Positions 28,336 to 55,277 of a DNA stretch of 64,000 bases are shown here, one piece after another. This DNA comes from an uncultured Magnetospirillum sp. Lineage in GTDB: Bacteria; Pseudomonadota; Alphaproteobacteria; Rhodospirillales; Magnetospirillaceae. The notes beneath the pieces were generated by a model, which was given only the letters and a program-made list of their open reading frames with translations, was not told the origin of the DNA and ran no database searches. Both the position numbers and the translations under genes were made by a program. How positions within the stretch are numbered: the first letter of the stretch is position 1; the number at the start of each line of letters is the position of its first letter. The stretch spans positions 62,001 through 126,000 of the forward strand of contig NZ_CAINTR010000008.1 in assembly GCF_903853455.1 (NCBI RefSeq). Reading direction: 5' to 3'.

Positions 28336-29259
28336 TCACGCGCCCAACGTGGTCCGCACCTTGGCGGCGATCTGCTCGGCCTTGAGGCCGAAGGTCTCGA
28401 ACATGGTCTCCTGCAACCCGTATTCCTTGGGGAAGACGTCGGGAATCCCCAGGCGCAGCACCTTGGGCAGGGCGACGCCCGCGTCCACCAGGCATTCCAG
28501 CACCGCCGAGCCCAACCCACCGGCCAGCAGATGCTCTTCCACCGTCACCAGCAGGTCGCGGCCAGGCACCAGCGCCCGCAGCGCCTCGGCGTCCAGCGGC
28601 TTGACCGTATGCATGTGCAGCACCCCGGCCTCGATCCCGGCGGCGGCCAGGATCTCGGCCGCCTTCAAGCAGCGCTCGGTGGTGGCGCCGGTGGACACCA
28701 TCAGCACCCGACCCGGCTCGCGCCGCAGGATGGCCTTGCCGATGCGGAAATCGTCGGTGGGCTGGCTGATCACCGGGTCGCCGCCCTTGGCCAGGCGGAT
28801 ATAGAGCGGACCCGGCCAGTCCAGCGACACGTCCATCAGCCGCTTCATCTCCTCGGCGTCCGACACCGCCACCACCGCCATGTTGGGCAGCGCCCGCATG
28901 ATGGCGAAATCCTCGATGGCGAGATGGGTGGCGCCCAGCGGTGCATAGACCACGCCGCCGCCATTGCCGATCAGGCGCACCGGCAGGTTATGGACGCACA
29001 GGTCCACCGCCACCTGCTCGTAGCAGCGCCGGGTGATGAAGGTGGCGATGGTGTTGACGTAGGGAATCATCCCGTCCAGCGCCATGCCGGCGGCGATGCC
29101 GACAATGTTCTGCTCGGCGATGCCTTCCATGATGAAGCGGTCGGGCATCTCGGCCTTCATGGCCTTCAAGGTGCCGACACCGAGATCGGAGCCGATGAAC
29201 ACCACCCGCGGGTCCGTCTTGGCCAGGTCGTGGACCTTGTTCAGGCAGGTATTGCGCAT
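28336..29259 (-). CDS. Transketolase family protein, C-terminal subunit (Pyr + C domains)
   Basis: VVFIGSDLGVGTLKAM, RFIMEGIAEQNIVGIAAGMAL, THLAIEDFAIMRALPNMAVV. Confidence 0.92.
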   Translation of the reverse strand: MRNTCLNKVHDLAKTDPRVVFIGSDLGVGTLKAMKAEMPDRFIMEGIAEQNIVGIAAGMALDGMIPYVNTIATFITRRCYEQVAVDLCVHNLPVRLIGNGGGVVYAPLGATHLAIEDFAIMRALPNMAVVAVSDAEEMKRLMDVSLDWPGPLYIRLAKGGDPVISQPTDDFRIGKAILRREPGRVLMVSTGATTERCLKAAEILAAAGIEAGVLHMHTVKPLDAEALRALVPGRDLLVTVEEHLLAGGLGSAVLECLVDAGVALPKVLRLGIPDVFPKEYGLQETMFETFGLKAEQIAAKVRTTLGA

Positions 29260-30116
29260 CACGCATCCTCCAGCGCGGCTTTGATGGCGCGCACTTCGTC
29301 TTCGGTGAACTTGTTCTTGTGGTGCCAGGACGGCTGATGCTCGGCGAACGGCACGCCGCGCCCCTTGACGGTATGGGCGATGATGGCGGTGGGCTTGTCG
29401 CCGCCGAAGTCGAGGCTCTTGAACAGCGCCGACAGGGCGTCCACGTCGTGGCCGTCCACCTCCACCGCGTTGAAGCCGAAGGCGGCCCACTTCTCCGGCA
29501 GCGGGTCCAGCGGCTGGACCTCGTCGGTGAAGCTGTAGGACTGGATCTTGTTGTAATCGACGATGGCGACCAGGTTGGACAGCTTGTGCTTGCCGGCGCT
29601 CATGGCCGCCTCCCACACGGCTCCCTCGTTGATCTCGCCGTCGCCCATCACCACGAACACGCGCGAGGCGCGCTTTTGCAGCCGGGCCGCCAGGGCCATG
29701 CCGATGCCGATGGACAGGCCGTGGCCCAAGGCGCCGGTGGAGGCCTCGACGCCGGGAATCTTGCCGGCCTCGGGATGGCCGCCCAGGATGGAGTCGCGCT
29801 TGCAGAAGGTCCCCAGAATTTCCCTGGGGAAGAAGCCTTTGTCGGCCAACAGGGCGTATTGGGCCAGACAGCCATGGCCCTTGGACAGGATGAAGCGGTC
29901 GCGCTCGGGCTGGTGGGGATCGGCCGGGTCATAACGCATAACCTCGTCATACAGCACCCGCAAGATCTCGATGGGCGACATGGAGGAGCCGATATGGCCG
30001 CGCCTTCCCCCCAGCAAGCCTTCCATCACCAGCCGGCGCAGATGCTTGGAGCGGTTGTCGAGGGGACGCGCCTCGGCCTGACGCGCGGCCTGGCGGATAG
30101 CGGAGGGTTGACTCAT
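29259..30116 (-). CDS. Transketolase, N-terminal subunit (ThDP-binding PP domain)
   Basis: GHIGSSMSPIEILRVLYDEVM, DRFILSKGHGCLAQYALLAD, VVMGDGEINEGAVWEAAMSAGKHKLSNLVAIVDYNKIQS (GDG...N ThDP motif). Confidence 0.95.
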   Translation of the reverse strand: MSQPSAIRQAARQAEARPLDNRSKHLRRLVMEGLLGGRRGHIGSSMSPIEILRVLYDEVMRYDPADPHQPERDRFILSKGHGCLAQYALLADKGFFPREILGTFCKRDSILGGHPEAGKIPGVEASTGALGHGLSIGIGMALAARLQKRASRVFVVMGDGEINEGAVWEAAMSAGKHKLSNLVAIVDYNKIQSYSFTDEVQPLDPLPEKWAAFGFNAVEVDGHDVDALSALFKSLDFGGDKPTAIIAHTVKGRGVPFAEHQPSWHHKNKFTEDEVRAIKAALEDA

Positions 30117-31093
30117 CACGTGGTCACCTTTGAAAGCAAGAAACGGGCCTTGTCCAACTGGCGTGCCCGCGCGGCGACGGCGTCGTCTTGCCCCGCCGCC
30201 TGGCGCCGCGCCCACCGCTCGGGCAGGAACTCGTTGAGCACGATCAGCGCCCAGCGCGCCACGAACAGCGGCCGGAACGCCGCCAGCCGCGCGGCATAAC
30301 CGGGCATGTCCTCATACACCCGGTCGCACCCCCGACGCCAGTGGTCGGCATGGTCGGGGGGCAGGCTCATGCCCGGATGCAGGAGGAATTCCGCCGCCAG
30401 CTTGACCGGGTCGTCCCAGCCGAAATACTCGAAATCGATGAAGACCAGCCCGCCATCGGCCCGGCGGATGGCGTTGTGAAAGCCGAAATCGGCCGGCGAC
30501 AGGGTGCGGCCTGCCGGCTCCAGCGCGCCGAACGCCGCCGCCCCGGCAGATTGATTCACCAGCGGAACGATGCCGTCTTCCAGAATCCCGCTCAAGGCCG
30601 GATGATCCGGCGCCACCTGGCGCAGCCGTTCCAACCGGCTTTCGACCTGCCGCGCCAGTTCAGCCCCGGACACGCAGGCCTCCGACGCCCAGGCCAGCGC
30701 CGCCGCGCCCTCGGCATGGCGCAGACCATGCAGCCGGGCGGCGAATGCCAGCGCCGCGTCCATGTCGGCCAGACTGGGCGCGTCCACCGCCGCGCCCTCG
30801 ATCCACTCGTAGAGGGCATGGCCGGATGCGTCGTCGCGGGCCAGCGCCGCCGGCACCTCGGCGATACCGTTGCGCTTCAGGAACGACAGCGCGGCGAACT
30901 CGGCCCCCAGCCGGTCGCGGCCGTCGCCCGTGGTGCGGGGATAGGATTTCAGGGCAAAGACCCGCCCATCTTCGGCCTCGACCCGATACAGACGGTTGTT
31001 GCCGCCGCGACCGCCGGCCACGACCGCCCGCACCGGCGCTCCCGCCAGCCGGGCCGCCAGCTCAGCCGAGGCGATGGAACAGGTGGCGACCAA
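30116..31093 (-). CDS. Aminoglycoside phosphotransferase/choline-kinase-like sugar kinase
   Basis: RVFALKSYPR, LSPADFGFHNAIRRADGGLVFIDFEYFGWDDPVKLAAEF (catalytic loop HxxxxN/D-type and DFE). Start uncertain (TTG 31093 or nearby). Confidence 0.75.
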   Translation of the reverse strand: MVATCSIASAELAARLAGAPVRAVVAGGRGGNNRLYRVEAEDGRVFALKSYPRTTGDGRDRLGAEFAALSFLKRNGIAEVPAALARDDASGHALYEWIEGAAVDAPSLADMDAALAFAARLHGLRHAEGAAALAWASEACVSGAELARQVESRLERLRQVAPDHPALSGILEDGIVPLVNQSAGAAAFGALEPAGRTLSPADFGFHNAIRRADGGLVFIDFEYFGWDDPVKLAAEFLLHPGMSLPPDHADHWRRGCDRVYEDMPGYAARLAAFRPLFVARWALIVLNEFLPERWARRQAAGQDDAVAARARQLDKARFLLSKVTT

Positions 31094-31744: not shown

Positions 31745-33319
31745 CTATTTGAGCAGCGTGTTGACGAATTTGAGTAGCGCCACCTTGTCCACCGACGAGC
31801 GATGGCCGACGATGCCGACCTTGATGGCGCCGGCGGCGTTGCCGACGAAGGCCACCTGATGCATGGGGCAGCCGGCCGCCACCAGCGGTGCCGTCACCGC
31901 CAGGAAGGCGTCGCCGGCGCCGACCGTGTCGACCACCTGCTTGGTGAAGGCGGGAACCCGCTGGACCATCTTGTCGCGCTCGTAGGAGACGCTGCCGTGC
32001 AGGCCGGCGGTGACGATGATCTTGTCGCAGGCCACCAGGGCCGGCAGATGGCGGGCGGCCAGTTCCGCCACGTCGCAATACTTGTCGGCGGCGGCGAAGC
32101 GGGCCTCGCGATGGTCGATGCAGACATAGTCGGCGCTGGCGTATTTGGTGATGAAGTTGAAACCCAGATTGCCGGCATTGGTCTGGGTGTTGACGGTGAG
32201 GAACCTGGAGCGCTCGCGCAGCAGGCCGATGGTGCTGGGCGCCAGCATGCCATGGCCGAAATCGGTCACCACCACCACGTCCGAGGCCGGGCAACGATCA
32301 GCCAGCACCGCGTTCACCTGATCCACCACCTCGGCCGCATAGGGACTGTCGTCCATATGGTAGACCTCGAACAGCTTGCGCACGTAGTTCGGTTCGATGA
32401 AGCGGGTCTTGCGGGTGGTGGGAGCGCCGGGACGGCGAATGACGGTGAGCCGCACATTGGACTTCAGGCTGGCGCGGATCAGGTCCTCGCAGCTGTCGTC
32501 TTCGCCCAGCACGGTGACGATTTCCACCTCGCCCACCAAGTCGGCCACATGGTTGGCCGCCGCCACCACGCCGCCGGCAAAGACTTCGCGGCTGCGGAAC
32601 AGGGTGGCGACCAGTTGCTCCTTGGAGGAGCGCTCCATGGTGTCGACGTAATTGTATTCGTCGATGATGGTGTCGCCGACCATCAGCACCTTATAGGCCT
32701 TGATCTTGTCCATATAGGCGGCGATGGAGGCGGTGGCGTCCTCCTGGCGCAGCTCTTCCAGGAAGTCGCGCAGCGGCGGATCGTAGACGTCGAGATAGCG
32801 GTTGATCAGGGTGGAGGAGCTGAAGGTGATGTCCTTGGTGAACACCAGCCGGCCGCCATGTTGCTCGACCGCGTCCTTCTCGGCGCGGATCTTGCCGGTG
32901 ATGTCGTCTTCCGGGTTTTCGTAGTCCGAGCCCTTGACGTAGACCGACGGGCGCACCGTATCGAGTACGTTCTCGGCGGTGGGGGCATGGTTGACCGCCA
33001 CCCAGTCCACATACTGGCAGGCGGCCAGCATCTCGGCCCGCAGACCTTCCGGGAAAATGGGCCGGCCCGGCCCCTTGTTGACGAAGCGGTCGCCGGTCAA
33101 GGTCACGCACAGCCTGGTGCCTTCGCGGCGCGCCGCCTCCAGATGGCGGACATGGCCCATATGGAGGAGGTCGAACACGCCGTGACACAGCACCACCTGC
33201 TCGCCGGCCTCCCGCTCCCGACGCACGACCTCGGCCATGGCCTCGAGAGTGAGGATCTTGTCGCGGGCGGTCGGCATGCCGTTGGCGGGAGCCGGAGGGA
33301 GGGAATTGTCTGCGGACAT
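31745..33319 (-). CDS. Bifunctional nucleotidyltransferase (N-term) / PfkB carbohydrate kinase (C-term), HldE-like with reversed domain order
   Basis: N-term VVLCHGVFDLLHMGHVRHLEAARREG (HxGH), KGSDYENP; C-term VLMVGDTIIDEYNYVD, VFAGGVVAAANHVADL, VVDTVGAGDAFLAVTAPL. Confidence 0.9.
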   Translation of the reverse strand: MSADNSLPPAPANGMPTARDKILTLEAMAEVVRREREAGEQVVLCHGVFDLLHMGHVRHLEAARREGTRLCVTLTGDRFVNKGPGRPIFPEGLRAEMLAACQYVDWVAVNHAPTAENVLDTVRPSVYVKGSDYENPEDDITGKIRAEKDAVEQHGGRLVFTKDITFSSSTLINRYLDVYDPPLRDFLEELRQEDATASIAAYMDKIKAYKVLMVGDTIIDEYNYVDTMERSSKEQLVATLFRSREVFAGGVVAAANHVADLVGEVEIVTVLGEDDSCEDLIRASLKSNVRLTVIRRPGAPTTRKTRFIEPNYVRKLFEVYHMDDSPYAAEVVDQVNAVLADRCPASDVVVVTDFGHGMLAPSTIGLLRERSRFLTVNTQTNAGNLGFNFITKYASADYVCIDHREARFAAADKYCDVAELAARHLPALVACDKIIVTAGLHGSVSYERDKMVQRVPAFTKQVVDTVGAGDAFLAVTAPLVAAGCPMHQVAFVGNAAGAIKVGIVGHRSSVDKVALLKFVNTLLK

Positions 33320-33354
33320 GCGTGCTTCCAAACCTTAAACAGCCGTGGGCGAGG

Positions 33355-33383
33355 CTATAGCCCGTTTTTCCGATCGCGGTCAA
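33355..33383 (-). promoter_or_regulatory. Sigma70-like promoter for the 31745..33319 gene
   Basis: Minus strand TTGACC-17 bp-CTATAG; imperfectly placed palindrome GTTCA-N5-TGAAC at 33391-33405 just upstream of the -35. Confidence 0.45.
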
Positions 33384-35091
33384 TGCCAGCGTTCAATTCG
33401 TGAACAGCCAGTTCGGGGATTTCAGCGCAGACCACCTCGTGGTAGGGGCGCTTGTTCAGGTTGACCAGCCCGGCGAAGCGCTCGCGCTCGAAGGTGTCGA
33501 CGCCGTCGCTCCAGCGCTTCAACTGGGCGACCACCGCTTCGGCGCTGGTGGCGCACAGGCCGGGAAATTCGCGGAAGATGGACTTCTTCTGACCGGGGAT
33601 GACGTCGATCATCAGGGTCGGCGTGCCCAACTGAATAGCTTCGGCAATGATGGTCGAGGGGTCCGAAACCACATAATCGGCGCGCGACACCAGTTCGTAG
33701 ACCGGGTCGGCCACATGAACCACGTTGGCCAGGCCCCGGCGGCAGTCCTCGATGAAGTCCGGAATCAGGCTGTCATGGGGATAGCCGCTCTTGACCTGCA
33801 ACAGGATGCGGCGATCAGGGAAGCTCTCGGCCGCCAGCCGCACGGCGCGGACGAATTCCGGGTTGCCGATGGCAAAGCGGGCCATGAACAGAATGTCGTG
33901 GCTGGTCCGGTGGGGCTGGTCGAGAAACTCTTGGGTGAAGGCGAAGGAACCGATGGAATGCAGCCCGCCCACCTCCCAGCTGTCCTTGAAATGGCGATGG
34001 AAGGCGCTGCCGATGGTGAAGTAGCGGTCCATGCTCACCCAGCGCAGCTGCGGCATCAGGATGGTGATGCCCTGGACGGCGTGGTTGAGGCCCCATTGCT
34101 GGGCGCCGACATGGTGCAGTTCCTGCCGCCGCAGCACATGCTCCACGTTGTAATCGTCGCGGGCCCAGAAATATTGAGGCCGGAAGCGGTTGAGCAGCGC
34201 CCGGATCTTCAGGCGGCGAAACGGCAGCAACGCCATCTCGTAGAACAGGCCTGGGGCGAGGTCGCCCCAGCGGGCCCAGATGGAAAATCCGTCCAGCGCG
34301 GTTCCGACCGCCTCCACCGCCCCCTTGGGGTCGAACACGCCGTCGCCGGGCATGCATTGCCGCCATGCGGCGAACGGCTTGGCGGCCTCGTAAGCGGCGA
34401 TCTCGGCATTGCGCATCACCATGACGGTCTCGCCGCCCCGGTTGAAGGCCCGGCACAGTTCCAGGTCGCGCCAGTCGGCGATCTGGTCCACCAGGGCGAA
34501 GACCGGCCGGCGCGGCGCCGACGGCCGCAGCTTGATCGCCACCCAGGCCAGGGCCGCCAGCAGACCGATCAGCAGGGCGGGAAGGTTGACCAGACGGTTG
34601 GGCAACCCCGTCGCCGTCACCCCCGGCAAGGCCGCCGCGCCGAACCAGGCCCGCGCCAGCCCCAGGATCTCCGGCGACAGGCCCACCACCGTGGCTCCGG
34701 TCAGCCCCACATGCTTGTTGAGCAGGAACGCCGCCATGTAGCGGCGGAAGGTGAACATGGTGGCCAGCAGCTTGAGGGCGAAACCGTGGCGCGCGTCCCG
34801 CCCCGCCGTTTCAAAACCGTAATGCCGGCCCTGCCACGGCTCGATGGTTTCCAGCACGTTGTCGGCGAAGATCAAGGTGGGGTAGGCCCATTCCTGGGCA
34901 TGCTCGGGATAGTCGTCGATCAGCCGCCGCGCGCCGCGCGCCAAGGCCCAGGCCTGCACCTTGTCCAGCAAACCCCGCAGGGGCGGCAGCAGCGGGTCCA
35001 CCAGCAGGATTCGCGGCGCCTCGCCGCGGCGCACCCGGCGGATCAGGCCGAAGGCGGTGATTTCGTTGAGGAGGATGACGGTGTCGGTCAT
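33355..35091 (-). CDS. Putative GT-B-like surface polysaccharide protein
   Basis: Start MTDTVILLNEITAF at 35091; YELVSRADYVVSDPSTIIAEAIQLGTPTLMIDVIPGQKKSIFREFPG resembles the capsule/teichoic-type GT-B C-terminal half. Confidence 0.5.
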   Translation of the reverse strand: MTDTVILLNEITAFGLIRRVRRGEAPRILLVDPLLPPLRGLLDKVQAWALARGARRLIDDYPEHAQEWAYPTLIFADNVLETIEPWQGRHYGFETAGRDARHGFALKLLATMFTFRRYMAAFLLNKHVGLTGATVVGLSPEILGLARAWFGAAALPGVTATGLPNRLVNLPALLIGLLAALAWVAIKLRPSAPRRPVFALVDQIADWRDLELCRAFNRGGETVMVMRNAEIAAYEAAKPFAAWRQCMPGDGVFDPKGAVEAVGTALDGFSIWARWGDLAPGLFYEMALLPFRRLKIRALLNRFRPQYFWARDDYNVEHVLRRQELHHVGAQQWGLNHAVQGITILMPQLRWVSMDRYFTIGSAFHRHFKDSWEVGGLHSIGSFAFTQEFLDQPHRTSHDILFMARFAIGNPEFVRAVRLAAESFPDRRILLQVKSGYPHDSLIPDFIEDCRRGLANVVHVADPVYELVSRADYVVSDPSTIIAEAIQLGTPTLMIDVIPGQKKSIFREFPGLCATSAEAVVAQLKRWSDGVDTFERERFAGLVNLNKRPYHEVVCAEIPELAVHELNAGIDRDRKNGL

Positions 35092-35099
35092 GACGTCCC

Positions 35100-35228
35100 C
35101 CCAAATCTCCCTCGCCACCCGCGAGAGCGGGGGGAGAGGGTCGGGGTGAGGGAGCTGTCGGCGACAGACGAGCCCTCACCCGGCTCGCTTCTGCTCGCCA
35201 CCCTCTCCCGCAAGCGGGCGAGGGTTGC
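35100..35228. repeat. Repeat-like intergenic sequence with complementary arms
   Basis: ctccctcgccacccgcgagagcggggggagagggtcggggtgaggg ... ccctcacccggctcg...ccaccctctcccgcaagcgggcgagg; complementary GC-rich arms in the gap between genes. Confidence 0.55.
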
Positions 35229-35229
35229 T

Positions 35230-36018
35230 TTAACCTCTGCCATAGGCCTTGGCGTTCCACAGGGGGTCGGTGGCCATGGTCTTGGTCACCCGCGCCAGAT
35301 CCTCGGCGTTGTCGACGGTGTCGGACACGATGGGGGTCACCAGCACCTTCATGGTGCGGCCCATCTCGATCACCCGGTTATAGTCGATGCCCTCGACCTC
35401 CTCGTTGTAGGTCATGCCGAACTCCAGGAACTCTTTCAGGAAGTCCGGCTTGAAGGCGATGATGGCGGTGTGCTTGTAGACCCGCTCGGGCAGCACCCCA
35501 TGCTTCTTGGGGCTGGGGATGGGCGCGCGCGACATGTAGATCAGGCCACCGTCGCTGTCGCGGAACAGCACCTTGACCCGGTTGAGGTCATGGAATTCCT
35601 CGATCAGGGTCAGCGGTTCGACCAGGGTGGAGGACTCCAGCGCCGGCTCGGCGGCATGCGCGGCGATGATCTGGTCCAGCATGGCGGGATGGACCAGCGG
35701 CTGGTCGCCCTGGACGTTGATCACCAGGTCGTACGGGCCGTCGGTCTCGGCGATCTTCTCATAGGCCCAGGCGATGCGGTCATTGCACATGTCGAATTCG
35801 GGGGTCACCACCACCTCGCCCCCCAAGGCGCGGATGTCGGCCGCCACCTCCTCGTTGGGGGTGGCGACCACCACCTTGGTCAGGGTCCGGCACAGGCGGG
35901 TGCGCAAGGCGCAGTGGCCGATCATGGACATGCCGTCGATTGCTTTAAGCGGCTTGCCGGGAAAGCGGCCGGAATTCATGCGGGCGGGGACGATGGCGAT
36001 AGTCCGAAGGGTGGTCAT
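35230..36018 (-). CDS. 3-deoxy-manno-octulosonate cytidylyltransferase (KdsB)-like
   Basis: TIAIVPARMNSGRFPGKPLKAIDGMSMIGH, DLVINVQGDQPLVHPAMLDQII, VYKHTAIIAFKPDFLKEFLEF. Confidence 0.85.
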   Translation of the reverse strand: MTTLRTIAIVPARMNSGRFPGKPLKAIDGMSMIGHCALRTRLCRTLTKVVVATPNEEVAADIRALGGEVVVTPEFDMCNDRIAWAYEKIAETDGPYDLVINVQGDQPLVHPAMLDQIIAAHAAEPALESSTLVEPLTLIEEFHDLNRVKVLFRDSDGGLIYMSRAPIPSPKKHGVLPERVYKHTAIIAFKPDFLKEFLEFGMTYNEEVEGIDYNRVIEMGRTMKVLVTPIVSDTVDNAEDLARVTKTMATDPLWNAKAYGRG

Positions 36019-37958
36019 GAGCGGTCTTCCACATCCAGAATGATCTTGAGCCGGGCGCCCGAGCGGGCCAGATCCCAGGCCTCGGCGAACGATTCCAGCG
36101 GCAACCGGCAGGCCAGCAGCGGCGACAGGTCGAGGCTGGGCATCAGGCGGATGGCCTCGGCGAAATCCTCCGCCGTGCTGCCGACCGAGCCCACCACCGT
36201 CTTGTCGAAGGCGGCGATGGCCTCGAACGAGAACTCCTTGCGGGCATAGGGCAGGCCCAGCAGCAGCAGGGTGGCGCCGGCCGGGGCCGAATGCAGCGCC
36301 TTGTCCAGCACCTCGGGATGGCCGGTGGCTTCCACCACCACGTTGAACGCCCCCAGGCGGTCGAGATCCTGCGACGTCTCGATGCCGGCCCGGCCCTTGA
36401 ACACCTCCAGCCGGGCGGCGTTGCGGTCGAAGATGGTGACGGGATAGCCCCGCCGCGCCAGCTCCACCGCGCAGATATGACCGATGCAGCCGGCCCCGAT
36501 CACGGCGCAGCGCCGCTCGGCATCGGGAGCCGCCGCCAGCGCCGGCATCAGCCGGCGCATGCCCTTCAGCACCACCGCCAAGGGCTCGCACAGCGCCGCC
36601 TGGCGCAGGTCGGCGCTGGCATCCAGCTTGTGAACGAACCGCGCCGGGACCGTAACGAAATCGGCATAGGCGCCGTTGCGGCGAAACACCCCCAGCTCGG
36701 TGCGCTCGGCACAGCCGATGAAATTGCCGGCGCGGCATTCGGTGCAAGTGCCGCAGCTCTGGATACACTCCACCACCACCGGGTCGCCTTCCTTGACGGC
36801 GGTGACGTTCTGGCCGACCGCGACGATACGGCCGGAGAATTCGTGGCCGGGCACGATGGGATACTTGGCCATGCCGGTCTTGTAATAGCCCAGGCTGCCG
36901 GACAACAGTTCCAGGTCGGTGGCGCAGACCCCCACATGGGCGGTGCGGATGACCACGTCGCCGGGCTTGAGCTCGGGCAGCTCCATCTCTTCCAGCGCCA
37001 CCTTGCCGGGGCCGTGGATGACCACGGCGCGGGTGGAGCGGTCGAACAGCGCGTCTTCGCGTTCCTCGGCAGTCTCCAACGGATGCGCCTCCAACAGCCC
37101 CCGGAAGGTGCCGTAATTGCGGTTGAGCCGGAAATAGACCACTTCGCGCAAACGCTGGCCCAGACTGAGCCGTTGCGCTACCGGATTGACCCCGGGAGCG
37201 ACGGCGCGGCCCAGGTCGGCGACGGTGTTGCCCAGCTCGACCGCCAATTCGCGCAGCACCAGTTTCGGCCCCTTGATCCCCATGCGCCGCGCCGCCACCG
37301 CTTCGCGGTAATAGCGCCGGCGGATCTGGCGCCAGCTTTCCTCGTGCAGGTGATAGAGCGCCGCGTCCGGCTGGTAGACCACCCGATAGCCCTCGCCCAT
37401 CCAGCGCCGGGCCCAGTCGATGTCTTCCAGCCCGGTCAACTCCTCGTCGAACGGGTAGGTTTCCCACAGGTCGCGGCGGATGGCGGAATTGGCGTTGTTG
37501 ACGGCGAAGCGTTCCGGGCTCTCGTCGCGGCCGCGATGACCGAAGCTGCGCTCGAAATCCTCGGCCTCGCTGAATTTGGAACAGGCCTTGCCCAGCTGAC
37601 GGCCATAGGTCATGGCCACCTTGGCGTCGCGCAACGGAGCGATCAGGTTCTCCAGCCAGTGCGCGTCGCAGGGCTCGGTATGGGCCGAGGCGATGGCGAT
37701 GAAGCGGCCCTCGGCGGCGCGGATACCGGTGTTGAGGGAATAGCCGAAGGTGAAGTCGTGGCTGGAGATGCGCAGCACCTTGTGGGCGCGCGCCTCGGCG
37801 ATGTCGCGGGTGCGGTCGAACGACCCCGAATCGACGATGATGACCTCGAAGTCGCGATAGACCTGACGGTCCAGCGCGTCGAACAGGCCGGGCAGGTATT
37901 TCTGCTCGTTGAAGCAGCGGATGACGACCGATGTCTCGACCCGCCGGGACTCAGGCAC
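36015..37958 (-). CDS. Fusion: GT2 family glycosyltransferase (N) + zinc-dependent MDR alcohol dehydrogenase (C)
   Basis: N-term TSVVIRCFNEQKYLPGLFDAL...EVIIVDSGSFDRT (GT-A), C-term VCATDLELLSG, PIVPGHEFSGRIVAVGQNV, GTCTECRAGNFIGCAERTE (structural Zn), AVIGAGCIGHICAVELARRG; one uninterrupted 647-aa ORF. Confidence 0.9.
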   Translation of the reverse strand: MPESRRVETSVVIRCFNEQKYLPGLFDALDRQVYRDFEVIIVDSGSFDRTRDIAEARAHKVLRISSHDFTFGYSLNTGIRAAEGRFIAIASAHTEPCDAHWLENLIAPLRDAKVAMTYGRQLGKACSKFSEAEDFERSFGHRGRDESPERFAVNNANSAIRRDLWETYPFDEELTGLEDIDWARRWMGEGYRVVYQPDAALYHLHEESWRQIRRRYYREAVAARRMGIKGPKLVLRELAVELGNTVADLGRAVAPGVNPVAQRLSLGQRLREVVYFRLNRNYGTFRGLLEAHPLETAEEREDALFDRSTRAVVIHGPGKVALEEMELPELKPGDVVIRTAHVGVCATDLELLSGSLGYYKTGMAKYPIVPGHEFSGRIVAVGQNVTAVKEGDPVVVECIQSCGTCTECRAGNFIGCAERTELGVFRRNGAYADFVTVPARFVHKLDASADLRQAALCEPLAVVLKGMRRLMPALAAAPDAERRCAVIGAGCIGHICAVELARRGYPVTIFDRNAARLEVFKGRAGIETSQDLDRLGAFNVVVEATGHPEVLDKALHSAPAGATLLLLGLPYARKEFSFEAIAAFDKTVVGSVGSTAEDFAEAIRLMPSLDLSPLLACRLPLESFAEAWDLARSGARLKIILDVEDRS

Positions 37959-38928: not shown

Positions 38929-39558
38929 TCAGGGCCGAGTCGTCAAGACTACCCGGCAAGGCGAGCCGTCGGCGCCGATCAATTTGAGCGGCAGGCAGGC
39001 AAGCTCATAGGCGCCGGAGGCGACGCCGCGCAGGTCCAGCCCCTCCACCGCGATCACCCCGGCGCCCAGCAGGATGCGATGAGTAGTGGGCTCGGCATCG
39101 TGAAAGCGCTGCACCGACAGGTAGTCGATGCCCACCAGCCGGATGCCGCTGTCCACCAGCCATTGCGCTCCTTCCGGGGTGAAGGCGACGAAATCGCGCT
39201 CGAACGCGTGGGCGGGATGGTCCCACAGCGCCGAATTGCGGGTCCGCACCAGCAGGCGGGTGCAGCCGGGCGGGATCTCGAACGCCTCGGGGCCGATGGC
39301 ATCGACCGCGTCGCCGACGCGGGCCACGTGGCACGGTCCCATCAGGATGCCCAGATCCAGGCCGGCCACGTCGCCGCCGCCGGGAATGAAATGGATGGGG
39401 GCGTCGAGATGGGTGCCGTAATGCACCGCGAAATCCATCCGGGTGACGTTGCACTCGTCGCCCTTGGCCATGTCGGACAGGCGCGTGACCACCGGGGCCG
39501 GCTCGCCCGGCCACGGCGGCACGCCGCTGCCGATGGCCAGGGTTACATCATAAATCAC
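38929..39558 (-). CDS. Cyclase family protein (kynurenine formamidase-like)
   Basis: GTG start; VIYDVTLAIGSGVPPWPGEP, FAVHYGTHLDAPIHFIPGGGDV (HxGTHxDAPxH), GIDYLSVQRF. Confidence 0.9.
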   Translation of the reverse strand: MIYDVTLAIGSGVPPWPGEPAPVVTRLSDMAKGDECNVTRMDFAVHYGTHLDAPIHFIPGGGDVAGLDLGILMGPCHVARVGDAVDAIGPEAFEIPPGCTRLLVRTRNSALWDHPAHAFERDFVAFTPEGAQWLVDSGIRLVGIDYLSVQRFHDAEPTTHRILLGAGVIAVEGLDLRGVASGAYELACLPLKLIGADGSPCRVVLTTRP

Positions 39559-40537
39559 GGTTTTCCCACTCCAGCGCCGAGCGGATGATGAGGTCGAGGT
39601 CGTCGCGCTTCGGGATCCAGCCCAGAATCCGCTGCAACAGGGTCGAATCCGCCACCAGGGCCGGCGGGTCGCCGCGTCGGCGCGGGCCGATGTCGATGGC
39701 GAGCTTACGCCCCGCCACACGCTGCACCGCGTCCAGCACCTCGCGCACCGAGAAGCCCCTTCCATAGCCGCAATTGGCGACCAGCGATTCGCCGCCCCGC
39801 TCCAGATGCCCCAGCGCCAGCACATGGGCCTCGGCCAGATCGGAGACATGGATGTAGTCGCGGATGCAGGTGCCGTCGGGAGTGGGGTAGTCCTCGCCAT
39901 AGATGCTGAGACCGGGGCGCTTGCCCACCGCCGCCTCCACCGCGATCTTGATCAGATGGCTGGCCACCGGCGAGACCTGACCGCTGCGGCCCATGGCGTC
40001 GGCGCCGGCGACGTTGAAATAACGCAGCGCCGCGAAGCGCGTGTCGCCCACCGAACAGGCGTCGGCCAAGGCCCATTCCAGCGCCAGCTTGGAGCGGCCA
40101 TAGGGGCTGATCGGCCGCAACGCCGCATCCTCGGCGATGGGCAGGCGGTCGGGGCTGCCGTAGACGGCGGCGGTGGAGGAATAGACCAAATGCCGCACCC
40201 CCGCCCCGATGCAGGCGTCGAGGAAGGCGAAACCGGCGCCGACATTGTTGCGCCAATAGGGCAGCGGCGTTTGAAACGACTCCGAAACGATGATCGAGCC
40301 GGCGAACATCATGACGCTGTCGCAGGCCTGCTCGGCCAGGATGCGGCGCACCAGGGCGCCGTCGCCCATGTCGCCCGGGATGAAGACGGCATCCGCCGGA
40401 ACCAAGTCCCGCCGTCCGGTGGACAGGTCGTCCAGCACCACCACCTTGCGGCCGCCGGCCACCAGCTCCAGCGCCACATGGCTGCCGATATAGCCGGCAC
40501 CGCCGGCGACGAGAACAGCCCTGCCTTCCATGGTCAC
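39548..40537 (-). CDS. galE: UDP-glucose 4-epimerase
   Basis: VLVAGGAGYIGSHVALELVAGGRKVVVLDDLSTG, VYSSTAAVYG, YGRSKLALEWAL, YGEDYPTPDGTCIRDYIHVSDLAEAHVLAL. Confidence 0.93.
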   Translation of the reverse strand: MTMEGRAVLVAGGAGYIGSHVALELVAGGRKVVVLDDLSTGRRDLVPADAVFIPGDMGDGALVRRILAEQACDSVMMFAGSIIVSESFQTPLPYWRNNVGAGFAFLDACIGAGVRHLVYSSTAAVYGSPDRLPIAEDAALRPISPYGRSKLALEWALADACSVGDTRFAALRYFNVAGADAMGRSGQVSPVASHLIKIAVEAAVGKRPGLSIYGEDYPTPDGTCIRDYIHVSDLAEAHVLALGHLERGGESLVANCGYGRGFSVREVLDAVQRVAGRKLAIDIGPRRRGDPPALVADSTLLQRILGWIPKRDDLDLIIRSALEWENRDL

Positions 40538-48875: not shown

Positions 48876-50672
48876 CTATTGGTTCAGCACCCGCCAAACC
48901 GCCGCCGAAGCGTTGGGAATGCGGCTGAAATCGCACATATGGTCGAGGATGGCGTCGCGGTCGGGCACCTCGCCCGCCGCCAGCGCCGCCGCCAGCGCCT
49001 CGGCGTCGGCGTAAAGCGGCACCGGTCCCATCACCGCCGGATCGACGCTGTTGGGCTGCGGCACCAGGGCGTAATAGGGCTTGCCCGCCGCCAGGGTCTC
49101 CACCAGCGAACCGGAATCCGCCGGCCCGATCACCAGATCGGCCCAGACCATCTGCTGCGGCACCGAGCCGCCGGTGACGATCTCCAGGCCCAGGTCGAAT
49201 TCGCGGTCGAGGGCGGCCCAGGCCGCCGGCCCGAAGGCGGGATGGACCTTGAGGCGGATCTCCTGGTAGCCCAGCCGGCGCAGCATGCGGGTGACGTCGA
49301 CGATGTTGGAATAGGTGGTGCCGCGCAGCATGCGGAAATTGTAGATGGAACTGGTGCCGGGCAGCAGCAGCACCCGCCCCCGGCCCACCGGCGGCAGGCT
49401 CAGCGCCGCCGATCCCCGCCGCACCGGGTCGAGGCCGGGATAGCCGACGCGGGCGGTGGGCAGCTTTGAGCCGATGCGGCGCAGCCAGTCCTCCTGCGAC
49501 GGCCCCCAGGACAGCAGCCGCGACAGTTTGGGCGGGCCGCAACGGTCGCCGCAGCGGATGTCGTAGGCGCAGTCATGCACGAACATGCCGTTCAGCAGCT
49601 CGTCGGCGGGAATGCCGGCGGCATGGGCGGCCTCGACGATCAGCCGGCCCGAAGTGTTGGTGGCGTCGCCCACCACCACCCGGGCCACCCGATGGCGGGT
49701 CAGCAGGGCGCGGTAGGACTTGGCCTCGGCGGCGAAGTCCAGCAGCCGGCCGTTGGTGAGGATCTTCTCCTCCACATGGGCGCGCCGCGCGGCCTCCACC
49801 GGCGCGGCCGGCGGATGAGTCCGCCAATGCTCCCTTAAGTCTGCCGCCCCGGCCTCCAGCCGCCGCACCTCCTCCCTGGTGAGGGACAGACGCGGCAGGC
49901 TGGCCAGGGTGGCGCCGCGCCGCAGGCAATCCCGCAGGAAGGACAGGGACTTGGGCGAACGCTGGGCGATCAGCACGGTTCCCGCCGGCCCGCCCGGCCA
50001 GGACTCCAGCAACCCTTGCTCCATCAACGGGTTGAGGAAGAACAGCACGCCGCCGGTCTTGCGCCGGAACGGCCGCAGCAGGCGAAACGCCAGATCGGTG
50101 AGGTCGGCCAGCAGATTGCGCAGAACCGCCTTGGCCCCCTTGGGACGCAGCGGCGCGCCGATCCCCAGCACGTCGTGGAAATGGCGGATGTCGTCGGGCG
50201 GGTCGAGGCGATCCACCACCGTCAGCCCATGACTCGCCGCCAGGGCCTGGACCAGGATGCGCTTCTGGGTGTCGCCGACCTGGCCGTATTCGCCGCGCAG
50301 GTCGTAGAGCACCAGTTCCTTGGGGGCGTAAACGCGACAGAAGCCGTCCAGCGCATGCCACAGCCGCTGGAATCCCAGCACCGACAGCTCCACCTCGCGA
50401 TTGAGCGCCTTGGCGGTGGACATGCCATCCAGCAGACCGACCTCGCCGCCGGCCTCGATCATCCATTCGCCGTGGCGCAGCAGCACGTCGGCGGGCGGGT
50501 CGTAATCGCCCAACATGGCGTCCACATGGCGGACGGCGACGCCCTCCCGCTCCAACTGGCGGCAGGTCAGCCAATCGGTACTCACCACCAGCGCGCCGGG
50601 GCCGGCATTACGGGCGGCGTCGAGATGGCGGGGATGGCTGATCAGCACCAGCCGGGTGACGGGCTCGGCCAT
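48876..50672 (-). CDS. Putative GT-B-like surface-glycan protein of unknown function
   Basis: C-terminal RLGYQEIRLKVHPAFG...VWADLVIGPADSGSLVETLAAGKPYYALVPQPNS resembles GT-B C-terminal half. Confidence 0.5.
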   Translation of the reverse strand: MAEPVTRLVLISHPRHLDAARNAGPGALVVSTDWLTCRQLEREGVAVRHVDAMLGDYDPPADVLLRHGEWMIEAGGEVGLLDGMSTAKALNREVELSVLGFQRLWHALDGFCRVYAPKELVLYDLRGEYGQVGDTQKRILVQALAASHGLTVVDRLDPPDDIRHFHDVLGIGAPLRPKGAKAVLRNLLADLTDLAFRLLRPFRRKTGGVLFFLNPLMEQGLLESWPGGPAGTVLIAQRSPKSLSFLRDCLRRGATLASLPRLSLTREEVRRLEAGAADLREHWRTHPPAAPVEAARRAHVEEKILTNGRLLDFAAEAKSYRALLTRHRVARVVVGDATNTSGRLIVEAAHAAGIPADELLNGMFVHDCAYDIRCGDRCGPPKLSRLLSWGPSQEDWLRRIGSKLPTARVGYPGLDPVRRGSAALSLPPVGRGRVLLLPGTSSIYNFRMLRGTTYSNIVDVTRMLRRLGYQEIRLKVHPAFGPAAWAALDREFDLGLEIVTGGSVPQQMVWADLVIGPADSGSLVETLAAGKPYYALVPQPNSVDPAVMGPVPLYADAEALAAALAAGEVPDRDAILDHMCDFSRIPNASAAVWRVLNQ

Positions 50673-51361
50673 CAGCCCCGATCCGCCAGCAGCAGCTCGG
50701 CCAGCCGGAAGTCCAGGACGCTGTCGATGTCCACCGAACGTTCGGCCGGCATGACATAGCCGACCGTGCCCTCGGCCATGAAGGTCAGCGACTGACGGAA
50801 CCAGGGAATCTTGGCGACGAACACCGCCCCGTTGGCGGCGAAGGCGGTGGGCAGGTCCTGACGCCGGGTGACGCCGCCGGACTCCAGCAGCCGCGACAGC
50901 CGGCCCTGCTCGTCCATGCGGTACATCCAGTAGGGCGACTTGGCCGCCTCGGTCACCCCGACGCAGGCGGGAGCGTCGGCGGCGACGCAGGCGGCCAGCG
51001 CCGCTTCCAGGTCCTCGGCCAGCCGCAGCGGCGAGGTGGGCTGCAGCAGCACCAGCAGGTCGAACGCCTCGTCCAGGGCGTCCAGGGCATGGATCACCAC
51101 CGGCGCCGAGGGGGTGTCGTCGCGGGCCAGCTCGGGCGGACGCACGAAGGGAGCCTCGCAGCCAGCCGCCACCGCCGCCGCGATGATGGCGGGGTCGTCG
51201 GACGAGATCACCACCCGGTCGATAGAGGGCGCCGCCAGGGCCTGCTCCACGCTCCAGGCCACCAGCGGCTTGCCACCCAGCGGCCGGATGTTCTTGCCCG
51301 GCAGCCCCTTGGAGCCGCCGCGCGCGGTGATCAGGGCGAGAACCTTGCGTCCGGCGATCAT
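50672..51361 (-). CDS. legF: Acylneuraminate cytidylyltransferase (CMP-nonulosonate synthetase, LegF/NeuA-like)
   Basis: VLALITARGGSKGLPGKNIRPLGGKPLVAWSVEQAL, LLVLLQPTSPLRLAEDLEAAL, SVDIDSVLDFRLAE. Confidence 0.88.
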   Translation of the reverse strand: MIAGRKVLALITARGGSKGLPGKNIRPLGGKPLVAWSVEQALAAPSIDRVVISSDDPAIIAAAVAAGCEAPFVRPPELARDDTPSAPVVIHALDALDEAFDLLVLLQPTSPLRLAEDLEAALAACVAADAPACVGVTEAAKSPYWMYRMDEQGRLSRLLESGGVTRRQDLPTAFAANGAVFVAKIPWFRQSLTFMAEGTVGYVMPAERSVDIDSVLDFRLAELLLADRG

Positions 51362-51368
51362 AATTCTC

Positions 51369-52037
51369 TCATTTCCGGCACGTGATCAGCCATTCGCGCA
51401 CCTCCCTGGTGCGGTTGCGGTCGGTGCGGATGACGTAATCCAGGGCGATGTCGGGGAAGACGCCGTAGAGGCCGGGGATCTCCTCCTCGGCGGTCAGGCG
51501 GATCAGGCCATATCCCTTGTTGAACGGGCCGTCGGGGATTTCCAGGAAGGTGTTGGGCTCGCCCTCCATCCTGCGGCCGGTGGCCTCGCCGCTGGTGCCG
51601 GTCATGAAGGCCTTGGAGAACAGCAGCCCGCCGGGTTTGAGCACCCGGTGGGCCTCGGCGACGATGCGGCGCGAATCCGCCAGCGTGTTGGCGTAGATGC
51701 ATTCGATGTCCAGCACGCAGTCGAAGCTGGCATCGGCGTAGGGCAGCTCCATGGCGTCGCCCTGGTCGAGGCGCGCCGCCAATCCCCGCTCGGCCAGCCG
51801 CTCGGCGGCGCGGTCCAGCCCGACCCGGCTGCCGTCCAACCCGGTGGCGTCGAAACCCTCGCCGGCCAGGAACACCATGTTGGCGCCGGCGCCGCAGCCG
51901 ATTTCGAGGAATTTCACCGCCTTGCGATCAGGGGCACCGAAATAGGTGCGCCCGATGAACCGCACCAGCTCCTCCGGGGGATATTTCCCCCAGTCCTTGG
52001 CGCTGAATACGTCGTCCCAGCCAGGATTCCACATCAT
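51369..52037 (-). CDS. Class I SAM-dependent methyltransferase
   Basis: VKFLEIGCGAGANMVFLAGEGFDATGLDGSRVGLDRA, FDCVLDIECIYAN, EAHRVLKPGGLLFSKAFM. Confidence 0.92.
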   Translation of the reverse strand: MMWNPGWDDVFSAKDWGKYPPEELVRFIGRTYFGAPDRKAVKFLEIGCGAGANMVFLAGEGFDATGLDGSRVGLDRAAERLAERGLAARLDQGDAMELPYADASFDCVLDIECIYANTLADSRRIVAEAHRVLKPGGLLFSKAFMTGTSGEATGRRMEGEPNTFLEIPDGPFNKGYGLIRLTAEEEIPGLYGVFPDIALDYVIRTDRNRTREVREWLITCRK

Positions 52038-53080
52038 CGATACCTGTATTTGAGAAAGCGTCCGCCGAACCGTTCGACCAGATCGGGATGGTCTTGCGCC
52101 CAGCCGGCGCAGACCGAATCATAGGCGGCACGGTCGATCATCACCTTGCCGAAGCGGAAGGTGGTCCGCTCGGGCGAATAGCCCGCCTTGAAGCGCAGCA
52201 GGCTGTCGTCGGCAGCGGCGGTGCGGCCGCCGCCATAATGCAGCCGCTCACGCCCACCGCCCAGCAGGTCCATGGTGACGGCGTGGCGCAGCAGGTTGTT
52301 GGGGCCGAACGCCGTGTAGGCCTTCAGCGACGACGACAGATGGTAATGGGCCCAGCGCGCCGACAGCAGGATCAAGGCGCCGCCCAGCACTTCCCCCTCC
52401 CGCTCGGCCAGGTAAACCCGCCACGAATTCGCCCCCAGGCTGGGGATGGCGCGGAAATAGTCGTCGCCGAAGAAGTAATCCTCGTGGGCATCCAACTCGC
52501 GCATATGGGTCTCGTAGAGACGGGCGAAGACCTCCAGCGCCGCCTGATCGGCGCGCCCGGTCACCACCACCCCGGCCTGCTCGGCCTTACGCACCTTGCG
52601 CCGGGTCTCGGAGGCATAACCGGCCAGCACGGTGTCGCGGTCCTTGGACAGGGTCAGGGCCACGGTCTGGCGGTCGTCGATCACCGTCACCGCCCCATGC
52701 GCCGCCCAGCGGTGGTTGTCCAGCAGCGGGTGAAAGCGGATGAAGCCGCAGACGACGCCACGGGCGCGGCAATGCGCCACCAGTGCCTCCCACGCCGCCG
52801 CCAGAAACGCCGCGTCGTCGCTGGTGGACAGCGGCCCGCCATAGCCGTAGGCGGTCTCGAAGTCGAACAGCGGCCGGTCGGACTGGCTTTCGATCTCCCG
52901 CACCAGCCAGGGCAGCAGGAAGGTCTCGCCGCCCTGCTCGAACACGAACAGTTCGTTGACGTCGCCCGGCCGGGCGTAGAGGGCGGCGTAGGCGGGACGG
53001 AAATAGACGTCGGCGAGACCGCCCAATCCATCGAGCAGGCGGTTCCAGGACCCGTGATCTTGGATCAGGCGGACGCTCAC
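52034..53080 (-). CDS. FemAB/GNAT-like peptidyl or acyl transferase
   Basis: GTG start; CGFIRFHPLLDNH, ALTLSKDRDTVLAGYASETRRKVRKAEQAGVVV, GGALILLSARWAHYHLSSS, LHYGGGRTAAADDSLLRFKAGYSPE (FemAB pattern). Confidence 0.85.
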   Translation of the reverse strand: MSVRLIQDHGSWNRLLDGLGGLADVYFRPAYAALYARPGDVNELFVFEQGGETFLLPWLVREIESQSDRPLFDFETAYGYGGPLSTSDDAAFLAAAWEALVAHCRARGVVCGFIRFHPLLDNHRWAAHGAVTVIDDRQTVALTLSKDRDTVLAGYASETRRKVRKAEQAGVVVTGRADQAALEVFARLYETHMRELDAHEDYFFGDDYFRAIPSLGANSWRVYLAEREGEVLGGALILLSARWAHYHLSSSLKAYTAFGPNNLLRHAVTMDLLGGGRERLHYGGGRTAAADDSLLRFKAGYSPERTTFRFGKVMIDRAAYDSVCAGWAQDHPDLVERFGGRFLKYRYR

Positions 53081-54111
53081 CGCAGGTCGGCCCATTGCAG
53101 CGGCTCGTCCTCGGCCAGGGCACGGTTGACGGTGAAGCCGGCCAGCCGGTCCAGGTCTTCGGGCTCGATGCCGCCGCCGGGGCGCTTGCAGGTCAGCATC
53201 TCAGGCCGCAGCACGGTGCCGGCGGCGATGGGTACCAGGGCCACCACGCCGCGGCGGATGCCGTTCATGTTGGCGATCTCGGCCTTGGTCGGGCGCTTGA
53301 CGCCGTCGCCCAGCATGGCCTCGATGCGGCGGATGGAGGCCACATAGGCAGCCAGCCCGGCCGGGTCCAGCGAGGCCTGATGGTCGGGACCGGGCAGCGA
53401 GCGGTCGAGGGTGAAGTGCTTTTCCACGATCGCCGCCCCCATGGCCACGGCGGCCAGCGAGGCTTCCGAGCCCAGGGAATGGTCGGACAGGCCCACCGGC
53501 AGGCCGAAGGCATGGCCCAGCGTCACCATGGCGCGCAGGTTGATCTGGTCGTCGGGGGCGGGATATTCCGAAGTGCAGTGCAGCAGGGCCAACGGCCCGA
53601 CGCCGCCTTTGCGCAGCGCCGCCACCGCCTTTTCCACCTCGCCCAGGGTGGACAGGCCGGTGGACAGGATGGCGGGACGGCCGGTACGGCCGATAGCCTC
53701 CAGGTACTGAAGATGGGTGACCTCGGTGGAGCCGATCTTGACGATGGGCATGTCCAGCTCGCCCACCAGGAAGGCCAGGCTGTCGAAGCCGTCGGGGGTG
53801 GACAGGAACAGGATGTTCCGGCTCTCGGCATGGGCCTTCAGCTCGCGGAACGCCGGATAGGGCAGGGCCAGCCGGCAGGACAGCTCGTAGCGGCTTTCCG
53901 CCGCGTCGGTGGTGGTCTCCAGATAGTCCACCTTGTAGGCGAACTTGCCGGTGATCTCGCCCGGTCGCCAGGTCTGGAACTTGACCGCGTCGGCCTTGGC
54001 CTCGGCGGCCACGTCGATCAACCGCTTGGCGCGGGCGATGTCGCCGTCATGGTTGACGCCGGCTTCGGCGATGATGAAGGCACGGCCGGCAGTGGCATAG
54101 GGCAGGGTCAT
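53077..54111 (-). CDS. legI: N-acetylneuraminate/legionaminate synthase (NeuB/LegI family)
   Basis: FIIAEAGVNHDGDIARAKRLIDVAAEAKADAVKFQTW, PIVKIGSTEVTHLQYLEAIGRTGRPAILSTG, LLHCTSEYPAPDDQINLRAM, GLSDHSLG, EKHFTLDRSLPGPDHQASL, C-terminal SAF. Confidence 0.94.
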   Translation of the reverse strand: MTLPYATAGRAFIIAEAGVNHDGDIARAKRLIDVAAEAKADAVKFQTWRPGEITGKFAYKVDYLETTTDAAESRYELSCRLALPYPAFRELKAHAESRNILFLSTPDGFDSLAFLVGELDMPIVKIGSTEVTHLQYLEAIGRTGRPAILSTGLSTLGEVEKAVAALRKGGVGPLALLHCTSEYPAPDDQINLRAMVTLGHAFGLPVGLSDHSLGSEASLAAVAMGAAIVEKHFTLDRSLPGPDHQASLDPAGLAAYVASIRRIEAMLGDGVKRPTKAEIANMNGIRRGVVALVPIAAGTVLRPEMLTCKRPGGGIEPEDLDRLAGFTVNRALAEDEPLQWADLR

Positions 54112-55277
54112 GGCGAGGGGGTATCCACGAAGCTCTTGCGGATCAGACCGTCGAGCGGATGGGTGGCGAGGATGTCGCGGATGCGCTCCGAGGCATGGCC
54201 GTCGCCGAAGGGGTTGACCAGCCCGGCCAGTCCGGCGCGAAACCCGGGCGACAGCAGCCGGCGCAGAGCGGCGGCGATGGCGGCGGCTTCGGTGGGGCAG
54301 TCGATGATGGAGGCGGCGCGCAACCGGCCTTTCTGGCGGTCGCCGATATTGACGGTGCCGATGCCGAAGCTGGGCACCTCGATCAGGCCGGAGGAGGAAT
54401 TGCCGACCACGCCGGAGACCAGCGCCAGGGCCGACAGATAGCCCTGATGGCCCAGCGACTTGACCGCCACGGCACGGCCAGGGCGCGTCGCCACGAAAGC
54501 CTCCACGGCGGCGGCGATGGCGCGGCCGCCGGCATCGGCATTGACCCCGGTGAAGATCAGCCGGACGTCGTCCTCGATCCCGGCCAGGGCGGCCAGCAGC
54601 TCGGCCACCTGACGCTCGGGGGCCAGGGCCGACAGGGTCTCGGGATGGAAGGTGACCAGCAGCGAGCGCTGGCCCAGGTCCAGCCCCAGCCGCGCCTCCA
54701 GCTCGGCGCGCGGCAGACGCTGGCCGTCGCGGATGGCGTCCAGCCCGGTGGAGCCCACCACGAACACCCGCTCCGGCGCCTCGCCCATCTGGACGATGCG
54801 GCGGCCATAGGCCTCGATGGCGGTGAAATGGAGGTGGGCCAGCTTGGTGATGGCGTGGCGGATGGCATCGTCCACCGCGCCTTCGGTCAACTGTCCGCCG
54901 GCGATATGGGCCAACGGCAGGCGCAGCGCCATGGCGGCGCTGGCGGCACCCAGCATCTCGTAGCGGTCGCCGAACACCAGGACGAGATCGGGCGTGAGGC
55001 GGGCGAAGGCCTCGGCCAGGCCCATGGTGGCCAGGGCCAGCGACTTGGCCATGCCGAGGCCGCTGTCGGAGGCCAGCACGATCTCCACCCGCTCGGCGAT
55101 GGCCACGCCCTCGGCCTCGATCTCGGTGACCGTCATGCCGAATTCGGGAGCAAGGTGAGTGCCGGTGACCACCACCAGCGGCTCGGTCCGCCCGTCCTCG
55201 GCCAGCAGCCGGATCAGCCGCGACAGCAGGCCGTATTCGGCCCGCGACCCGGTGACAATGGCGATCCGGCGCTTCAT
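54108..55277 (-). CDS. legG: UDP-N-acetylglucosamine 2-epimerase, hydrolysing type (NeuC/LegG-like)
   Basis: IAIVTGSRAEYGLLSRLIRLL, LVLVFGDRYEMLGAASAAMALRLPLAHIAGGQLTEGAVDDAIRHAITKLAHLHF, VVGNSSSGLIEVPSFGIGTVNIGDRQKGRLRA. Confidence 0.94.
   Translation of the reverse strand: MKRRIAIVTGSRAEYGLLSRLIRLLAEDGRTEPLVVVTGTHLAPEFGMTVTEIEAEGVAIAERVEIVLASDSGLGMAKSLALATMGLAEAFARLTPDLVLVFGDRYEMLGAASAAMALRLPLAHIAGGQLTEGAVDDAIRHAITKLAHLHFTAIEAYGRRIVQMGEAPERVFVVGSTGLDAIRDGQRLPRAELEARLGLDLGQRSLLVTFHPETLSALAPERQVAELLAALAGIEDDVRLIFTGVNADAGGRAIAAAVEAFVATRPGRAVAVKSLGHQGYLSALALVSGVVGNSSSGLIEVPSFGIGTVNIGDRQKGRLRAASIIDCPTEAAAIAAALRRLLSPGFRAGLAGLVNPFGDGHASERIRDILATHPLDGLIRKSFVDTPSP

Follow-up and report, generated by a model that had tools for sequence, protein, structure and literature searches.

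A conserved glycosyltransferase-zinc dehydrogenase fusion and a possible oxidative route to CMP-ulosonates

In the Kdo and sialic acid pathways to CMP-ulosonates (KdsA-KdsC-KdsB and NeuB-NeuA), a KdsB/NeuA-type enzyme activates a 2-keto sugar acid, which is then transferred by a glycosyltransferase (GT). Oxidative aldose pathways of the Weimberg and De Ley-Doudoroff type use an aldose 1-dehydrogenase and a lactonase, and in systems of the TarIJ and Bcs1 type a dehydrogenase or reductase is paired with a cytidylyltransferase for surface-polymer synthesis. The 2-hydroxyacid dehydrogenase family includes PdxB (4-phosphoerythronate dehydrogenase), which according to an excerpt of PMC6303947 forms a 2-keto acid by oxidation of an aldonate phosphate.

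The cassette described here would share with the Kdo and sialic acid pathways the activation of a 2-keto sugar acid and its transfer. In contrast to them, its core has no PEP aldol synthase and carries a 2-hydroxyacid dehydrogenase instead, its GT is GT2-like without a D-X-D motif, and its KdsB-like protein differs in motif from the true KdsB of the genome. As in the Weimberg and De Ley-Doudoroff pathways, the proposed route opens with an aldose dehydrogenase and then a lactonase, but the aldonate would be oxidised at C2 and saved for a glycan instead of being dehydrated and catabolised. A dehydrogenase is paired with a cytidylyltransferase as in the TarIJ and Bcs1 systems; here, however, the dehydrogenase is an MDR enzyme fused to a GT, and the cytidylyltransferase belongs to the KdsB family. 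The 2-hydroxyacid dehydrogenase belongs to the family of PdxB but scored below the curated PdxB model and is located in a glycan cassette. In the open-access literature, searched by titles and the beginnings of abstracts, no paper was found that deals with this GT-ADH fusion or describes an oxidative route to CMP-ulosonates.

Domains of the fusion protein and its neighbours

The window, which is the whole 64-kb stretch of DNA analysed, comes from contig C8 of a 5.18-Mb genome (Table 1). The nearest named relatives carrying the fusion gene are Magnetospirillum and Paramagnetospirillum. A sequence-only reading had described a GT2 domain and a complete MDR dehydrogenase in one unbroken ORF; the ORF list and Pfam agreed, with no internal stop and the gene on the minus strand. 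Pfam matches, every one above its curated cut-off, were Glycos_transf_2 (residues 10-126), ADH_N (331-446) and Glu_dehyd_C/ADH_zinc_N (approximately 454-631). The close spacing described in that reading was also found, as an ATGA overlap between the KdsB-like gene and the fusion stop and an 8-nt overlap between the D-2-hydroxyacid dehydrogenase gene and the fusion start. A structure prediction from a six-row alignment had a mean pLDDT of 47, too low for a usable model.

Table 1. Positions in the window of the fusion gene, its domains and its neighbours
Feature	Coordinates	Strand	Evidence
GT2-MDR fusion protein of 647 aa (starts with GTG at 37958; stop ends at 36015)	36015..37958	(-)	ORF list, Pfam, full-length conservation
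Glycosyltransferase domain (GT-A/GT2), residues 7-300	37059..37940	(-)	Pfam and alignment
MDR zinc dehydrogenase domain, residues 310-645	36024..37031	(-)	Pfam, solved-structure matches, alignment
KdsB-like cytidylyltransferase (CTP_transf_3)	35230..36018	(-)	Pfam, curated models; below KdsB equivalog cut-off
D-2-hydroxyacid dehydrogenase, 311 aa	37951..38886	(-)	Pfam, solved matches, motifs
PF04199 metal-dependent hydrolase (cyclase/kynurenine formamidase-like), proposed lactonase; start codon chosen by the analyst	38929..39558	(-)	Pfam, motif
GalE-type UDP-sugar 4-epimerase	39548..40537	(-)	Pfam, curated models
Conserved 587-aa neighbour	33355..35118	(-)	Homologues beside fusion in several relatives

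The GT domain scored 70.3 bits against PF00535 (gathering cut-off 23.3). It has S-A-H in place of D-X-D, and S-[AGS]-H was present at this position in 17 of 17 aligned family sequences, the window protein included; three more distant GT paralogues from the same genome had DAD, NQD and DAD in the same alignment. GT-A families vary at the D-X-D position, so its absence narrows the mechanism and not the fold. The replacement is compatible with a CMP donor and with no metal being required at that place.

The MDR half aligned nearly end to end with solved MDR enzymes (residues 311-641) and contains ADH_N, an NAD-binding half with GAGxxG and D511, and both catalytic and structural zinc ligands, as expected of an MDR zinc dehydrogenase. 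C345, H372, E373, C402, C405, C408 and C416 were invariant in 11/11 aligned fusions, E458 and D511 nearly so, the row from a Bdellovibrionales genome reaching only to its stop. By analogy with the MDR family we take C345, H372, E373 and E458 to be zinc-site residues and C402, C405, C408 and C416 to bind the structural zinc. The best-ranked relatives, solved and curated, were threonine 3-, galactitol-1-phosphate 5-, sorbitol and scyllo-inosose 3-dehydrogenases, with D-arabinose 1-dehydrogenase and glucose dehydrogenase ranked lower. The domain therefore lies closer to threonine and polyol dehydrogenases than to the lactone-forming aldose 1-dehydrogenases, which makes its substrate the weakest step of the route proposed below; the first step may be the oxidation of a secondary carbon.

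The KdsB-like protein scored 119 bits against the kdsB equivalog TIGR00466, below the cut-off of 155.2, and 198.3 against the looser subfamily model NF003952, above its cut-off of 193. At a position whose residues presumably bind the Kdo tail, the true KdsB of the genome has EKLEQLR and the window protein has EGIDYNR, the cassette types being EGIDYNR or ESIDMMR-like. Identification of the window gene as true KdsB was rejected on the score, on the motif and on the presence of the true KdsB on another contig. The proteins at most other fusion loci fall into KdsB-like groups different from that of the window protein, and none is the genome's true KdsB.

The D-2-hydroxyacid dehydrogenase has the family match, G-x-G-x-x-G and an Arg/Glu/His motif, the roles of these residues being assumed from the family; a probable 2-ketogluconate reductase was its third-best solved match. 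The PF04199 hydrolase carries HYGTHLDAPIH, a full H-x-G-T-H-x-D-x-P-x-H motif, which an excerpt of PMC5341072 gives as the metal motif of PF04199, whose members there include a carboxylesterase as well as the trans-dienelactone hydrolase from Pseudomonas reinekei. Its nearest curated model was arylformamidase, an amide hydrolase, with a score below cut-off, and it is chiefly for amide hydrolysis that PF04199 enzymes are known. The 587-aa neighbour had no significant Pfam or PHROG family and a weak Epimerase_2-like tail.

Elsewhere in the window, a nonulosonic acid pathway is represented on the minus strand at 50672-55277 by genes for a CMP-sugar synthetase-like protein, NeuB (53077-54111) and a UDP-GlcNAc 2-epimerase. 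An HldE-like gene (31745-33331, minus strand) has the nucleotidyltransferase domain before the PfkB kinase, opposite to the usual HldE order, and a transketolase is split over two genes (28336-30215, minus strand) within the polysaccharide region. Approximately 13 kb before the window (G000:C8; L092:4757-7179), adjoining genes for a KdsB-like protein, a HAD phosphatase and a D-2-hydroxyacid dehydrogenase resemble another CMP-ulosonate-type set in the same genome.

Conservation and origin of the fusion

When 317 genomes of the order were searched for the fusion (E<=1e-45), 17 matched: 14 with the full-length fusion, two with the GT alone, both from one genus, and one in which the match was ended by a contig edge. 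G856 was set aside, and rejected as a GT-only genome, because its GT runs to the end of a 3515-base contig. The same architecture, sought as proposed with the sequence-only reading, was also found outside the order, in a Bdellovibrionales MAG of a distant phylum (55% identity). The Bdellovibrionales copy (L041:8001-9902) has a single in-frame TGA within the ADH half, for which an error in the MAG, decay of the gene or a nonsense mutation may account. In draws of 385 genomes from the class and 398 from the phylum (E<=1e-50), the fusion was present in none except the window's own genome, and relatives of the GT half occurred in three genomes of each draw. Plasmid searches for further split forms returned just the four records previously found.

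In trees of the GT half and of the ADH half, the fused proteins formed one clade against the outgroups with support of 100, which fits a single fusion event behind all of them; branching within the clade was poorly supported in both. The fusion clade of the GT tree also takes in the two GT-only sequences and one cut sequence. In both GT-only genomes a short sequence, FDHAAANIEEVPLP, may be what is left of the beginning of the ADH half, which hints that they lost this half secondarily, and the tree agrees weakly (support 39).

Four close pairs gave dN/dS values of 0.20-0.26 for the GT half, 0.15-0.24 for the ADH half and 0.04-0.20 for the 19-codon linker. Purifying selection thus acts on both halves, and the linker is conserved in the aligned fusions. 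Within the window's fusion ORF, a plausible ribosome site accompanies just one internal start, TTG at codon 294, which is preceded by a purine-rich stretch, and this codon would serve a reading in which two genes were joined by sequencing or separate proteins arise by internal initiation. We consider either artefact extremely improbable. A sequencing join, or a lone fusion, was rejected because the frame is open and full length in 14 of the 317 genomes. Internal initiation is unsupported, since codon 294 is CTG, CTC or CTT in 6/10 sequences, ATG in 2/10 and TTG in only 2/10. These findings confirm that the GT2-MDR fusion is a real, conserved two-domain protein.

Gene sets of the fusion loci and of distant relatives

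The sequence-only reading had linked the KdsB-like and hydroxyacid dehydrogenase genes with the fusion, and the comparison of loci bears this out. All 12 fusion loci counted had a cytidylyltransferase no more than 4 kb from the GT, and 11 of them had a 2-hydroxyacid dehydrogenase within 1 kb (of the 14 loci, L077 and L085 were omitted as contig-limited). In G011 the 2-hydroxyacid dehydrogenase is on a separate contig, beside a PF04199 gene. Among 99 relatives, the dehydrogenase (E<=1e-60) was present in exactly the 12 with a close GT; these genomes are related, so the co-occurrence does not amount to 12 independent events. The PF04199 gene (E<=1e-40) was found in 13 of the 99, namely 9/10 fusion genomes, 0/2 GT-only genomes and 4/87 others, and is thus enriched alongside the ADH half. 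One fusion genome (G062) had no PF04199 match at all, and in G007, G011 and G078 the gene lies away from the fusion. In some relatives NeuB-like ORFs, judged from ORF starts, are found upstream of the cassette.

The decisive clue to the pathway was provided by the gene sets of distant relatives whose GT lacks an ADH half. In 12 such outgroup loci (GT 35-44% identity), a cytidylyltransferase was present within 1 kb in 10 and a 2-hydroxyacid dehydrogenase nearby in nine. Genes of lactonase type were present in five loci, SGL/gluconolactonase in L060, L061, L069 and L072 and UlaG-like in L064, where the lactonase domain, of metallo-beta-lactamase fold, is fused N-terminally to the same GT family (L064:7225-8892). 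The gene order in L060, L061 and L064 was GT, cytidylyltransferase, 2-hydroxyacid dehydrogenase and SDR. The SDR of these three loci was nearest to models of glucose 1-dehydrogenase, and a nearby SDR in L069 and L072 to D-xylose 1-dehydrogenase, in all cases below the curated cut-offs. The six GT-only genomes checked had 2-8 SGL genes each, and by hand arithmetic approximately 0.13 SGL genes were expected in the stretches read, compared to two found. No lactonase of the types sought was found in L059, L062, L063, L065, L070, L071 and L073 (7/12), and L059, L062, L063, L070 and L071 had neither a lactonase nor an SDR of those types with GT and cytidylyltransferase present.

The proposed route and its alternatives

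The combination of aldose dehydrogenase, lactonase, 2-hydroxyacid dehydrogenase, cytidylyltransferase and GT was read as an oxidative route, in which the fusion would act both first and last in a cassette producing an acidic 2-keto sugar by oxidation and attaching it. We put the probability of this reading at roughly 0.48, a little short of even, and we infer the reactions of the cassette, their order, the sugar and the acceptor. The MDR domain would oxidise an aldose at C1 with NAD+ to a lactone, the aldose perhaps being galactose, given GalE in the cassette. The PF04199 hydrolase would open the lactone to an aldonic acid, the D-2-hydroxyacid dehydrogenase would oxidise C2 to give a 2-keto-aldonate (an ulosonic acid), and the KdsB-like enzyme would use CTP to form the CMP-sugar. 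Finally, the GT2 domain, with its S-A-H, would transfer the CMP-activated sugar to a surface glycan.

Counted in favour of the route were the linkage of the cytidylyltransferase and 2-hydroxyacid dehydrogenase genes to the GT, the tracking of PF04199 with the ADH half, the SDRs and lactonases of the parallel loci, for the steps of C1 oxidation and lactone opening, and the second pairing of a cytidylyltransferase with a 2-hydroxyacid dehydrogenase at L092. PdxB, the 2-ketogluconate reductase match and the esterase and dienelactone hydrolase of PF04199 serve as precedents. Counted against it were the nearness of the MDR half to threonine and polyol dehydrogenases, the absence of PF04199 from G062 and its distance from the fusion in three genomes, the five of 12 outgroup loci with neither lactonase nor SDR, the NeuB genes in the window and, for the lactonase role, the nearness of the PF04199 protein to arylformamidase. 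Against the C2 oxidation, 2-hydroxyacid dehydrogenases work for the most part as reductases in vitro.

The sequence-only reading had supposed that acceptor or donor is oxidised or reduced in concert with transfer. The gene context supports a place for the dehydrogenase in the transfer pathway but not this coupling. It fits better with an early dehydrogenase and a GT that comes last, several enzymes later, and suggests that donor synthesis begins with the dehydrogenase, on a donor precursor. Two relatives of one genus have a GT lacking the ADH half, so that in them transfer needs no ADH domain in cis.

The same CMP-ulosonate cassette could also be served by an MDR domain that is a polyol or secondary-alcohol dehydrogenase, oxidising C-OH to C=O at a carbon of the ring or chain and so setting a keto group or stereocentre; no lactone would form, and the PF04199 protein would hydrolyse something else. 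This is rather unlikely in our estimate: the threonine, inosose, galactitol phosphate and sorbitol dehydrogenases nearest to the MDR half favour it, but the aldose 1-dehydrogenase-like SDRs and lactonases of the parallel loci and the tracking of PF04199 with the ADH half speak against it. The chances are poorer that the sugar modified by the cassette and handled by the fusion is a nonulosonic acid, or one of Kdo type, from the usual PEP aldol route (NeuB/KdsA). The genes for NeuB, UDP-GlcNAc 2-epimerase and CMP-sugar synthetase-like protein lie 13-17 kb away, several relatives have a CBS-nucleotidyltransferase gene right beside the cassette, and the cytidylyltransferase is KdsB-like; yet it falls below the KdsB cut-off and has EGIDYNR for EKLEQLR, with the true KdsB elsewhere in the genome. 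Moreover, no NeuB or KdsA was listed in the Sulfitobacter and Gemmobacter stretches, although Thalassovita has kdsA approximately 7 kb off.

It is more improbable still that the fusion only serves to co-express two unrelated steps, with the dehydrogenase outside the donor pathway of the GT. Retention of the GT without the ADH half in two relatives would agree with such an arrangement; however, a single fusion has been kept with the same cassette by 14 genomes of the order and also by a member of a distant phylum, and both halves are constrained.

If the oxidative reading holds, it may define a new class of CMP-ulosonic acid pathway, a tentative proposal to which we give slightly less credence than to the route itself. 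In it, an aldose would be oxidised stepwise (C1, lactone opening, C2) without PEP aldol condensation, and the D-X-D-less GT2 family would have been fused at least twice to enzymes of its own donor pathway, the MDR dehydrogenase here and the UlaG-like lactonase in L064. At least one bacterial capsule is known to contain a hexulosonic acid, for PMC10433991 cites a paper on the E. coli K3 antigen with its 4-deoxy-2-hexulosonic acid. The hypothesis is directly testable because one protein holds both ends of the route. If it is true, a set of enzymes would become available for the production of rare CMP-sugars, CMP-activated keto-sugar acids would be made straight from common aldoses, and the chemistry of surface glycans would be wider.
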